DNA from: Bacilli bacterium
Lineage (GTDB): Bacteria > Bacillota_I > Bacilli_A > RF39 > UBA660
Direction: 5' to 3'
Length of the DNA stretch: 64,000 nt
Assembly: GCA_017428485.1 (NCBI GenBank)
Contig: JAFRQT010000048.1
Location: forward strand, 1-64,000
In this document: in pieces, positions 4,975 to 52,273 of the stretch
How the letters are laid out: every line of letters begins with the position of its first letter
Position numbering within the stretch: position 1 is the stretch's first letter
Notes under the pieces: model-generated
Seen by the model: only the letters and a program-made list of their open reading frames with translations
Told to the model about the DNA's origin: nothing
Database searches by the model: none
Program-made: the position numbers and the translations under genes

Positions 4975-5003
4975 ATTTTCACCAAATAAATTATAACATA
5001 ATT

Positions 5004-5032
5004 AAAAAAGATATTCATTAGAAATATCTTTT
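5004..5032 (-). terminator. Intrinsic terminator of the 38-aa ORF
   Basis: Hairpin AAAAGATATT / AAATATCTTTT directly downstream of the small Ser/Arg-rich ORF on the minus strand. It supports this ORF being a separate transcription unit. Confidence 0.7.
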
Positions 5033-5040
5033 CTTTACAA

Positions 5041-5157
5041 TTAGCGACTTCTAGAATTTGACATTTTTGCTCTAGAATTGCTTCTTGCACTACTATTACT
5101 TCTAGATTTTGATCTAGCATTAGATTTACATCTAGAATTGTTTCTAGCGTTTGCCAA
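5041..5157 (-). CDS. Ser/Arg/Asn-rich basic miniprotein, 38 aa
   Basis: A TTG-initiated ORF behind a GGTGGTG ribosome-binding site with its own terminator. The product has 8 Arg and 3 Lys, many Ser and Asn, one Cys and one internal Met, and no acidic residues, giving a net charge near +11. SR and NSR steps recur (NNSR, SKSR, SNSR), encoded by repeated TCTAGA hexamers. No aromatic residue is present, so it is likely unfolded. It resembles protamine-like or spore-core nucleic-acid-binding peptides in composition only; I recognise no family. The alternative is a non-coding repeat, but the RBS, clean frame and terminator argue for a gene. Confidence 0.6.
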   Translation of the reverse strand: MANARNNSRCKSNARSKSRSNSSARSNSRAKMSNSRSR

Positions 5158-5204
5158 TTTTATCACCACCTAATATTATTATGGTTATAAATTTTTTTTA
5201 AATG

Positions 5205-5210
5205 TATAAT
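5205..5210 (+). promoter_or_regulatory. -10 element placed for a leaderless ZIP mRNA
   Basis: TATAAT ends 8 bases before the ATG at 5219, which would put the transcription start at or next to the start codon. No ribosome-binding site lies between. No clear -35 was found. Confidence 0.5.
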
Positions 5211-5218
5211 ATTTTAAT

Positions 5219-5962
5219 ATGAAAATGGAAATATTTGGTCCTTTATTATTATCTTTAATTGCGGGATTAAGTACTCTTATAGGAGGACTATTTATATTTA
5301 TAAAATTTAAAAATATCAATAAGTTTATTGTAATTTCTTTATCATTTTCAATATCTATAATGATTCTTATTTCAATATTTGATTTATTACCAAATTCGAT
5401 TAATAACATGACTAATTATTATGGAATATATTATGGAATTCTATTAACTATTTTAACTTTTATTCTTGGATATTTAACTATATATCTCATAGCAAATAAA
5501 ATTAATTCTGAATCATCACTATATAAAATTGGAATATTATCTATGATATCTCTAATGTTGCATAATTTTCCAGAAGGTATAGCAGTATTTATGAGCAGTT
5601 ATGTAAATATAAGAGTAGGGTACAAGTTATTTCTTGCTATAATACTCCATAATATTCCAGAAGGAATTTCAATTGCAGTCCCACTCTATTATAGTGGCCG
5701 AAGTAGGGGAATAGCTTTAAAATACACTTTTATTTCTGGTGTTGCTGAACCTATTGGTGCACTTTTATCATATATTTTTCTTAAAAAATATATAAATAAT
5801 ACTATGATATCATTTATTTTAGTATTTGTATCAGGATTAATGATGTCTCTAAGTATTAATGAAATATATAAAGAAATTAAGAAATATAATTTAATTAATT
5901 ATAGTTACATTGGATATGTAGTAGGGATAGTAATATTTTTTATACTTTCATTTATATTATAG
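5219..5962 (+). CDS. ZIP family metal transporter (ZupT-like)
   Basis: Uptake of zinc or a related divalent cation. The 247 aa protein is almost entirely membrane helices. The two signature helices carry HNFPEGIAVF and HNIPEGISIAVPLYYSG, the His/Glu metal-translocation residues of the family. The start is taken at the first ATG (another lies two codons later); no Shine-Dalgarno is visible and the -10 box abuts the start, so the mRNA is probably leaderless. It is divergent from the 38-aa ORF. Confidence 0.9.
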   Translation: MKMEIFGPLLLSLIAGLSTLIGGLFIFIKFKNINKFIVISLSFSISIMILISIFDLLPNSINNMTNYYGIYYGILLTILTFILGYLTIYLIANKINSESSLYKIGILSMISLMLHNFPEGIAVFMSSYVNIRVGYKLFLAIILHNIPEGISIAVPLYYSGRSRGIALKYTFISGVAEPIGALLSYIFLKKYINNTMISFILVFVSGLMMSLSINEIYKEIKKYNLINYSYIGYVVGIVIFFILSFIL

Positions 5963-5993: not shown

Positions 5994-6481
5994 TTAGAAT
6001 TTAAAAAATGATATGATTAAAATTTGCATTAAGTAAGATAATTAGTCATTTAGTAATATTTCGATGCAAATTAGAAAATTGAATATTTTTAATAAACTTA
6101 AAAAAATAAAATTGTATCCCTATTACACATTTTTATAAAAATGAAGAGGGGAAGTATTGTTAAAAATTTACTTTGAGATGAATAACTATTCATTTTATCT
6201 AATCTCGATGCAAATTATAAAAATAGATATTTTCATTGAAATGAATAATTATATGTTTTTTGATAATTCGATGCAAATTATATAATATAATATTTTTTAA
6301 TAATTTATAATTAATTAAATATTATAAAAATTTGTAAATATTTAAAATTATATAATTATATCTAAATAGTAAGTAATTATTACAAATAAAAAAGAATAAT
6401 ATATTATATTTATATATCATTCTATTTCTTATCAAGAAGTTAACATAATATAAATTATCAAAAGTAGTATGTAACCTATGA
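5994..6481. other. Gene-free AT-rich stretch
   Basis: About 490 bases with no credible ORF, RNA-gene fold or strong promoter. It holds three copies of the 13-mer TCGATGCAAATTA (listed separately) and an inverted 9-base match, AATTTGCAT, at 6021-6029. The rest is A/T-rich sequence with no structure I could support. Confidence 0.6.
6061..6280 (+). repeat. Three imperfect repeats built around TCGATGCAAATTA
   Basis: The 13-mer is exact at 6061-6073, 6205-6217 and 6268-6280. The last two sit in units of about 63 bases that also share ATGAATAA-type sequence before the core and AT-rich TATTTT after it; the first unit shares the following AATATTTTT. Spacing is unequal (144 and 63), unlike CRISPR. 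Function is unknown. Confidence 0.7.
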
Positions 6482-23230: not shown

Positions 23231-24163
23231 CTATTTAATTTTTAGTTTTCTTTCAAATTTTATACATATATTTTCAATATAATTCTTATTATATAAATCA
23301 TTTAGCCATTCTTTCGGAATATTTTTATACCCATATATTATTCCTACTATACTACCTGTAACAGCACCAACCGTATCAGTATCTCCACCTAAATTAATAG
23401 CTTTGATAATTGCATCTTTAAAAGATTCTGTTGTTAATACTGAATATAATGCTGATTCTAAAGTATCAATAACATACCACAAAGACGATATTTCTTCTTC
23501 TTTTAATTTTGCAATGTTTCCCTTAAGTATTCTATTATATAATTTTAAATATTCTTTATTAAACATACTATAATCAATATGCTTAATATTATAATAACTT
23601 TCAAATTTATCAAAACCTTTTAATAAAAATAATAGATAATTTGTCATAATATAACAACCAATTATACTTATTTCATGCCTATGAGTCAAAGAAGATAAGT
23701 TTTTACAAATTTCAAAAATAGTATTATTATTACAATTTGTATAGTAAGCATATAAAGCACAAGGTAATATTCTCATAATTGATCCATTGCCATTATTATT
23801 TATATTATTAATTCCACATTGAGTTGCATTATTACCATTATATTTTTCAATTGCTTGCATACATGTATTTCCAACGCCAAATGTAATACCGCTTGGAGTA
23901 TATTTTCCATTAAATAACCATTCTTGAAACTTTTTCATTATATCTTCATAACTTATATATCCAATATCAGCAATAGATTCAAGAGTTGCTAGTGTTAGAG
24001 ATGTATCATCACTCCAATAGCCTTTTGGTAAATTGTGTGATAGATGCCCAATCATATTTATAACAGGGTTTAATTTAAGATATTCTCTTTTATAAGTTTC
24101 TATTGGAACACCCATTGCATCACCAATTGCTAATCCTAATACGGAATCAATTACTTTACTCAT
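23231..24163 (-). CDS. ADP-ribosylglycohydrolase family protein
   Basis: Removes ADP-ribose from modified targets or splits related glycosidic bonds. The signature binuclear metal motifs are present: DAMGVP near residue 16, SDDTSLT near 52, and GGDTDTVGAVTGSIVG near the C-terminus. Start set at the second ATG (24163); GGAGG is only one base from the first. The 310 aa length is normal for DraG-like proteins. No partner ADP-ribosyltransferase is nearby, so the substrate is unknown. Confidence 0.92.
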   Translation of the reverse strand: MSKVIDSVLGLAIGDAMGVPIETYKREYLKLNPVINMIGHLSHNLPKGYWSDDTSLTLATLESIADIGYISYEDIMKKFQEWLFNGKYTPSGITFGVGNTCMQAIEKYNGNNATQCGINNINNNGNGSIMRILPCALYAYYTNCNNNTIFEICKNLSSLTHRHEISIIGCYIMTNYLLFLLKGFDKFESYYNIKHIDYSMFNKEYLKLYNRILKGNIAKLKEEEISSLWYVIDTLESALYSVLTTESFKDAIIKAINLGGDTDTVGAVTGSIVGIIYGYKNIPKEWLNDLYNKNYIENICIKFERKLKIK

Positions 24164-24210
24164 CATTCCTCCTATGTTATTAACAATTTGATTATAACAA
24201 ATTTAATAAT

Positions 24211-45310: not shown

Positions 45311-46501
45311 TTAGATATCAGATGTACTAACTGTTATAACAGGACGAAGGCCGATGCCGTAGCTAGACCATGGGTCAGCACAACGTAGAATGCTATTCCT
45401 ATAATAACAAACACGAAGCTGATCTTGAGCAAAACCAACCCAATATGACCAATTACCTTTTATTGTATTTGATAAAGAACCAGCTTCTTCATACGTTAAA
45501 AGTCTTCCTGTTATGTTATTTGGTGCTCCTAACCTTTTTAAATTGTTTATATATCTTTCCACATAGTATGCAATATTATATCCATTATTTTCTGCATAGC
45601 CCTGTGTATTGCTTTCATTGATATATGTTGCTACACTTGGTGCAATTGTTGACATACTACTATTATATACATAAGGATATGGTGCTTTATAGCTTGTTGT
45701 TCCTGATGCATTTGCTGAGTTTGAATAATTACTCTTTAAACCTGAGGTATCAGGGCAAGAATATCCACTAGAACCAGTTGATACACAATTTGCATTATCC
45801 CAATATGATATTCCTGAAAACGCTACTACTCCTGTTCTATCAGTACATCCATTATAATGTCCTTTTGCTGTCTCACTTTGTAGTCCATATCCTGTATCGC
45901 TTTCTCTTAATGTCTTTGTTTTTGACCATATATTATTTGCTTTATTATATACATCTCCTACCAATAAATTGTACTTTGCAAGTAATATTGTACGCCCTTC
46001 TCCATCATCTGAATTTATTACATAAAAATGTTCGCTTCCTATTCTAACTTCATCTCCTACTGTTATTTGCCCTTCATTTTGTCTATTTACATATTTTATT
46101 GGTCCACTACATTCAAAAGTATATCCACTTTCTACATCTTCCACTTCATTATTTTTTACATCACTTACTATTCCATTACTTACATATTTATATGTTCCAT
46201 TATATACTTGTAAATTTATTATTTCTCCATTTCCATTTAAACTTATACAATATTCTATATTATTTCCTCCTGATAATGATAATTTATTAGTTCCACTATT
46301 ACTATAGTTCTTTGCCCCCATTCCATCTAAAAAGTATTGTTTTTTTGCAGTATTTATTATATTATTTGCTTCAGCTACAAAAGTATTTCTTCTTGCCTCA
46401 TTATACATTTTCAATACATTTGGAAGTGCTATTATAACTAGTATTGCTAGTATTGCTATTACTGCTAATAACTCTACTAGTGTAAATCCTTTTTTATTCA
46501 T
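45311..46501 (-). CDS. Prepilin-like secreted protein, 396 aa
   Basis: Type III signal peptide: MNKKG followed by FTLVELLAVIAILAILVIIALP, with cleavage expected after Gly5 and the conserved Glu at +5. The mature protein then has a long ectodomain with several Cys (CPDTSG, CYYRNSILRCADPW) and ends in GLRPVITVSTSDI, a terminal motif seen in other Firmicute surface proteins. No other pilus genes (ATPase, platform protein, peptidase) are in the window. A consensus promoter and CAGGTGAT precede it. Confidence 0.85.
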   Translation of the reverse strand: MNKKGFTLVELLAVIAILAILVIIALPNVLKMYNEARRNTFVAEANNIINTAKKQYFLDGMGAKNYSNSGTNKLSLSGGNNIEYCISLNGNGEIINLQVYNGTYKYVSNGIVSDVKNNEVEDVESGYTFECSGPIKYVNRQNEGQITVGDEVRIGSEHFYVINSDDGEGRTILLAKYNLLVGDVYNKANNIWSKTKTLRESDTGYGLQSETAKGHYNGCTDRTGVVAFSGISYWDNANCVSTGSSGYSCPDTSGLKSNYSNSANASGTTSYKAPYPYVYNSSMSTIAPSVATYINESNTQGYAENNGYNIAYYVERYINNLKRLGAPNNITGRLLTYEEAGSLSNTIKGNWSYWVGFAQDQLRVCYYRNSILRCADPWSSYGIGLRPVITVSTSDI

Positions 46502-51352: not shown

Positions 51353-52273
51353 TTACTTAGGTTCACCACAATTAGATTTGTTAAAAGATATTTGACATAC
51401 ATAAAGATTTGTTACCCTAACAGCACCATCAAGGCAGGCATTTGCAGTAAATTCGGTATCTTCGCAGGTAATACATTTAGTAGCAGCAGCTTTCACACTA
51501 GGAATGCCTGTCATACCCCAAAATTTTTTATAATTTATATTATTTGCTTGTAAAATGTTTGTGTCACCGGTACAATTCTCTACACCAAATAAATCTATTA
51601 GTTTTACTTTATTTGAATGATATGAAGCACCAGAATCTGCCCCTTTTAAATAATATGCAGTCCCATTTTTAACAAATCCAACGTATGAATCTGTTATAGC
51701 ATTACTATCATTAACATTATGTGCAGTGAAAATAGGATATCCAAATGTATTGACAGCAGCAGAATAGTTATCAAACGTATTAGTATTGTTTACTGACAAA
51801 GTATCTCCTATACTTTTATTTTCAGTTCCTACATAATAGATATATTCAGGTGTTGACTCAGAATTACAACTAAATTCATAATCATCCCCAACCAATTCAA
51901 CTTTACTTATATCAGCTTTATCAGTCTTACTATTAATTTCATACTTATATTCCCCATCAGATATATTAATACTTGTAATATATCCATTAGAATCCATATT
52001 TACACAATATTTAAATTCACCAGTACCATTTTCAATATCTAATTTATTATTACCAGAAGTATTTGTATAAGTATGATTGCTATTATTATTAAATTGGTTT
52101 AAAAAAAATTTATTTTTAGCACTTTCATATATTGACTGAACTTCATTAAAAAAAGCATTCTTTTTGGCATCCTTAAATAGTTCTAATACATTGGGTAGTG
52201 CAATAATAGTTAGTATTGCAAGTATTGCTATTACAGCTAATAACTCAACTAATGTAAATCCTTTTCTTCTCAT
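51353..52273 (-). CDS. Prepilin-like secreted protein, 306 aa
   Basis: MRRKG followed by FTLVELLAVIAILAILTIIALP gives a type III signal peptide with the Glu at +5. The mature protein has an ectodomain of about 270 residues, with Cys pairs near the C-terminus (CITCEDTEFTANACLDG, CQISFNKSNC). The first 60 residues match the 396-aa prepilin closely, the ectodomain much less, so the two are paralogs with diverged heads. CAGGTGAT-like sequence (TAGGTGATAG) precedes the ATG. Confidence 0.85.
   Translation of the reverse strand: MRRKGFTLVELLAVIAILAILTIIALPNVLELFKDAKKNAFFNEVQSIYESAKNKFFLNQFNNNSNHTYTNTSGNNKLDIENGTGEFKYCVNMDSNGYITSINISDGEYKYEINSKTDKADISKVELVGDDYEFSCNSESTPEYIYYVGTENKSIGDTLSVNNTNTFDNYSAAVNTFGYPIFTAHNVNDSNAITDSYVGFVKNGTAYYLKGADSGASYHSNKVKLIDLFGVENCTGDTNILQANNINYKKFWGMTGIPSVKAAATKCITCEDTEFTANACLDGAVRVTNLYVCQISFNKSNCGEPK

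Follow-up and report, generated by a model that had tools for sequence, protein, structure and literature searches.

A solitary gene of 38 codons from a Bacilli genome probably encodes a protamine-like forespore peptide which, judging from its sequence, would have taken over the packing of spore DNA from the alpha/beta SASPs. We give even chances to a broader statement, that an endospore-forming clade discarded the chromatin based on SASPs and GPR and rebuilt it on protamine-like Arg/Asn/Ser peptides under the same forespore regulation, as a bacterial parallel to the histone-to-protamine switch. Both the alpha/beta SASPs and GPR count as hallmarks of endospores, and SASP/GPR chromatin is widely held to be the standard. 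The window analysed here is a stretch of 64,000 nucleotides from a genome whose family, presumably, is one of gut Bacilli within the order RF39.

The gene at 5041-5157 and its promoter

The peptide gene and its surroundings comprise the following features:

5041-5157, minus strand: coding sequence of the 38-residue Asn/Ser/Arg peptide (MANARNNSRCKSNARSKSRSNSSARSNSRAKMSNSRSR), its frame conserved in relatives with pS above pN
5000-5034, minus strand: probable terminator, an A/T-rich hairpin followed by T's, directly after the stop
5166-5171, minus strand: RBS AGGTGG, 8 nt before the TTG (the promoter/RBS pattern matches at 5166-5182)
5177-5183, minus strand: CATAATA, the -10 element of a sigma-F/G-like promoter; CATAATA/CATAATACTA directly precedes the RBS in nearly all relatives
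5201-5206, minus strand: TACATT, a -35-like element placed 17 nt upstream of the -10, aligning with TGAATT/GTATTA of relatives
5226-5238, minus strand: upstream element CCAAATATTTCCA, which overlaps the start of the ZIP gene and lies 42 nt before the -10
5219-5962, plus strand: ZIP-family metal transporter (PF02535, E 1.3e-19), the divergent neighbour

A sequence-only reading of this DNA had proposed a 38-residue peptide with no acidic residue and a charge near +11, repeated TCTAGA hexamers, and an RBS and a terminator of its own. The peptide is real, though it lies on the minus strand and starts with TTG (5157-5155), a codon that is ATG in several relatives; the stop is TAA (5043-5041), while the plus strand of the same interval has two stops. 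Recomputing its composition, we obtained a net charge of +11, no Asp or Glu and one Cys. TCTAGA is present in four copies inside the gene (5050, 5071, 5101 and 5131) versus 23 in the whole window, and the RBS was found as well. Regarding the terminator, the hairpin after the stop reaches -9.6 kcal/mol (z -3.35, with none of 200 shuffles equally good) but does not appear in the consensus terminator scan, which requires three G-C pairs. Such a composition was found in none of the other ORFs of the window and in none of 40 first-order Markov copies of it.

Nearly all peptide genes carry CATAATA and then (M)TA directly before the RBS, with TGAATT, GTATTA or TACATT 17 nt earlier. The sigma-F/G promoter consensus has the same form and, by sequence, the peptide promoters are of the sigma-F/G type. 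Further upstream, the element CCAWWNATTDSCA was present in 43 of the 49 promoters of a first set, versus 0.005 expected in shuffles. Among 65 non-identical peptide promoters, 56 contain ATTD[CG]CA and nine are without the element. Its distance to the -10 downstream of it is 42-44 nt in 40 occurrences and 32-34 nt in 16, two positions that are one helical turn apart; another five occurrences are at 57 or 62 nt. Of 43 alpha/beta-SASP promoters from sister genera in the same taxonomic family, 35 show ATTDCCA. For 34 occurrences, the distance to a TATTAGTG-type box further downstream is 37-39 nt, equivalent to around 33 nt before the -10. Only two of the 65 other ORFs of the window have ATTDCCA upstream. 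Thus, by its sequence, the gene combines a forespore sigma-G promoter with a regulatory element in common with the alpha/beta SASPs. According to an excerpt of PMC3789822, SpoVT raises sspA 70-fold and sspB 12-fold in Clostridioides difficile and also raises both in Bacillus subtilis, which would make SpoVT the natural candidate for binding this element.

The gene stands alone, divergent from the ZIP gene. We considered a functional link between the two and dropped it because the peptide gene is kilobases away from ZIP in many relatives; the ZIP gene is probably context, outside the function of the peptide. The window also encodes SigK, SpoIIP and SpoIIM, which bears out the sporulation genes announced by the sequence-only reading. 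Besides, downstream of the ZIP gene, TCGATGCAAATTA occurs in three exact copies on the plus strand (6061-6073, 6205-6217 and 6268-6280; 0.11 expected by chance) within longer A/T-rich repeats that are 67-70% alike. Elsewhere in the window, two minus-strand genes (45311-46501 and 51353-52273, the second near sigK) have type-IV-pilin-like N-terminal signals (TIGR02532), and another at 23231-24166 on the minus strand encodes an ADP-ribosylglycohydrolase-like protein with an NF041672 match below its cut-off.

The peptide family and its distribution against SASPs

We analysed 18 genomes from the genus of the host, its own included, 13 of them with a close ZIP orthologue, and in all 13 the peptide gene is present and divergent from ZIP. 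Conservation of the frame at this locus in close relatives, the check that the sequence-only reading had suggested, was observed in each of these 13. Among the 80 loci of ZIP relatives that we scanned in named genomes, many from Bacilli MAGs have a similar peptide adjoining ZIP or some kilobases off. Together with a survey described below, these loci gave 66 distinct peptides of 31-61 residues (median 45) and net charge +7 to +13, with 32% Asn, 23% Ser, 17% Arg and 8% Lys. Residues F, W, Y, I, L and V account for three of 2885 positions; 42 peptides have one Cys and 24 have none. They repeat in steps of three to four residues (NSR, NSSR, NARN) and are of low complexity and probably disordered. 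Over five independent close pairs, pS was 0.105 (12/114 sites) and pN 0.018 (9/504 sites; Fisher p 6e-5), so that, on its codons, the family is under purifying selection.

This is a conserved, unnamed family. Pfam gave zero matches for the window peptide and for 28 family members, and no solved structure in the PDB matches family peptides. The earlier statement that the peptide resembles no family holds for these two collections and needs softening for two others, where single members gave three matches in NCBIfam (E 0.065-0.099) and one in PHROGs (E 0.002, an unnamed family). A peptide-based profile failed to recover even the copy in the window and was of no use for genome searches, so we used DNA patterns instead.

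The genus has kept the genes for building a spore. SpoIVA scores above its cut-off in 15 of the 18 genomes, while neither alpha/beta SASPs (PF00269) nor the GPR protease (PF03418) were detected in any of the 18, the host's own included. Of the genomes of 40 relatives, ten have SASP, and precisely these ten have GPR. According to these gene searches, the genus retains SigK, SpoIIP, SpoIVA and SpoVAC and has lost the customary proteins of spore chromatin along with the protease that degrades them.

To place the peptide against the SASPs, we surveyed 291 genomes from the taxonomic family: an alpha/beta SASP is present in 171 and SpoVAC/SpoVAEB in 247. (This PF00269 count is in conflict with the ancestral loss of SASPs, based on KEGG orthologues, given in the part of PMC10868615 discussed below.) The promoter/RBS pattern also matches unrelated genes, and every counted site was therefore read: 110 sites among the matches listed, of which 87 had no basic peptide. 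A basic peptide was found at 23 of 53 sites in SASP-negative genomes and at 0 of 57 in SASP-positive ones; thus none of the 171 SASP-positive genomes has one among the matches listed. In all, at least 25 genomes from 14 genera carry it (G000 and G004 included), all without SASP and 24 with SpoVAC/SpoVAEB. Among the 88 genomes that are SASP-negative and SpoVAC-positive, 64 showed no peptide in the matches listed, a number that is no count of absence since the pattern misses variants. At the level of genera, the exclusion between peptide and SASP has a Fisher p of 5e-9 with kinship ignored, but a single branch of the ZIP tree separates off all 52 peptide carriers on the same side, so the Fisher p-values overstate the association. 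The loss of SASPs and the gain of the peptide may be a single event.

Finally, we searched 50 genomes of named MAGs for SASPs and found any match in only two of 41 peptide carriers (L047, L053 and L083 are counted among the carriers), with four of four Clostridium genomes positive as controls. One of the two matches is partial and at a contig end (L060, genome G336). The other carrier (L068, genome G344) has a SASP of another type, encoded on a contig of 4.9 kb; this protein (L326 on G344:C36, KAVPEAMNALEKFKYEVASE...) is possibly a contamination. In an additional locus, L054, the peptide gene is cut by the contig end; it was kept out of the 41 carriers and its genome gave zero SASP matches.

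The SASP-positive sisters have something else. In eleven of their survey genomes we found eleven near-neutral N/K/S peptides whose genes have a -10 and RBS of similar form; their Arg content is 2.8% compared to 16.7% in the basic peptides. Nine near-neutral genes were checked for the full upstream element, and none had it in front. In G018, G019 and G020 the near-neutral gene is beside ZIP, on its other side. A second DNA pattern retrieved near-neutral peptides of SASP-positive genomes but was unspecific, with peptides in nine of the 50 loci read. Unnamed small proteins that are near-neutral, N/K/S-rich and Cys-containing, their genes having similar -10 and RBS sequences, occur in SASP-positive genomes (L016, L017, L018, L149, L260-L262, L266-L270 and L272); in several of them, a GF[ETDA] motif is accompanied by an acidic tail. 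By their sequences, the near-neutral peptides are candidate counterparts of the basic one, and part of the family therefore need not bind DNA.

Proposed function and its alternatives

The likeliest role of the peptide, which belongs to no SASP family, is to work like a SASP; its sequence has the look of a minimal polymer for condensing DNA. Late in sporulation, the gene would yield a short, disordered and strongly cationic peptide in the forespore, where the regulator SpoVT might bind the upstream element. The peptide would then accumulate in the spore core, and its Arg and Lys residues, spaced by Asn, Ser and Ala in steps of three to four residues, could neutralise the phosphates of the DNA and compact the chromosome. 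Two chains may be cross-linked through the single Cys that is frequent in the family, and removal of the peptide at germination would require a protease other than GPR. Nucleic-acid binding is proposed here from the composition together with the missing SASPs. The sequence-only reading had offered a spore role in the core or the coat, or as a nucleic-acid condenser. The forespore-type promoter, the element shared with SASP genes and the spore genes of window and genome support the spore role well. Of the options offered, the core or condenser one fits best.

One could argue that the reading frame arose by chance within repetitive AT-rich DNA, given that it is short, of low complexity and without an ATG start in the host genome. 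We rejected a spurious ORF, which is scarcely credible, because the frame is conserved in relatives and a comparable composition is absent from the other ORFs and the Markov copies; moreover, pS is well above pN, the gene has its own RBS and a conserved promoter, and it was kept in all 13 same-genus loci examined. More serious, though still unlikely, is a forespore storage or osmotic protein similar to the gamma-type SASPs, which would serve as an amino-acid reserve without binding DNA, its charge being secondary. The peptides are indeed very rich in Asn and Ser, the near-neutral peptides of the SASP-positive sisters share a similar -10 and RBS, and one peptide type (L040) ends in NEFSAE, which we take to be loosely GPR-site-like. 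However, net charge and Arg content are higher where SASPs are missing (16.7% versus 2.8% Arg), the full upstream element was not seen before the nine near-neutral genes, and the genus is without GPR. Membership of the gamma-type family itself was rejected, since PF04259 is over cut-off in none of 40 relatives and Pfam matched none of 28 members.

Two further explanations seem to us rather improbable, and equally so. As a mother-cell coat polycation like CotB or CotG of Bacillus, the peptide could be cross-linked by its Cys, and its repeats recall the positively charged Ser-rich repeats in the tails of those proteins; yet its promoters look sigma-F/G-type by sequence and share their element with SASP genes, which are forespore genes, and CotG is far longer than the family peptides. 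Binding RNA or ribosomes in the spore core, instead of DNA, would suit the composition equally well, and spores store ribosomes, but this would leave the exclusion with the alpha/beta SASPs, which are DNA binders, unexplained by itself. We keep the packing of spore DNA as the preferred reading.

In an excerpt of PMC3533761, SASPs are described as DNA-binding, DNA-protecting and sigma-G-dependent. A part of PMC10868615 predicts RF39 to be capable of sporulation with a markedly different phenotype and places the loss of SASPs, by KEGG orthologues, at nodes ancestral to these orders, while sporulation in RF39 is scored 0% in a passage of PMC12536801. According to an excerpt of PMC7028958, the sequence variants that were successfully transplanted via caecal material on eggs included some of RF39. 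Our searches of the open-licence PMC literature turned up no publication about a SASP substitute in spores that is protamine-like or Arg-rich. If our reading is true, the protection of spore DNA can be rebuilt from a cationic peptide that is unrelated to the SASPs and yet under their forespore controls, which would account for sporulation in SASP-less lineages. It also bears on the prediction of sporulation from genomes, for which the cited parts of PMC10868615 and PMC12536801 disagree on RF39.

Comparison with known systems

CotG and CotB are mother-cell coat proteins and much longer than the peptide. They have in common with it the positively charged Ser-rich repeats, and differ in that the peptide has a promoter sequence that looks sigma-F/G-type. 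The gamma-type SASP SspE (PF04259) is Asn/Ser/Gln-rich, disordered and made in the forespore, a likeness to what we predict for our peptide; in contrast, our peptide has no match to this profile over the cut-off, is strongly basic and comes from a genus without GPR.

In the compact sperm cells of animals, protamines take the place of the usual DNA packer, as the peptide would in the spore. Like them, the peptide is short, strongly cationic, probably disordered and practically free of hydrophobic residues, often with one Cys. Unlike them, it would belong to a bacterial endospore, and its Arg, though abundant, is spaced by Asn and Ser and makes up 17% rather than the majority, the Arg content of animal protamines being well above that value; no homology is implied. 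Regarding the alpha/beta SASPs, the peptide differs in having no sequence similarity (PF00269 is not matched) and no hydrophobic core, a net charge of +7 to +13 over 31-61 residues, and a host genus without GPR. It resembles them in being a short, predicted forespore protein with a sigma-F/G-type promoter and the same upstream element in the same bacterial family, and their protection of spore DNA is the job that we propose for it.
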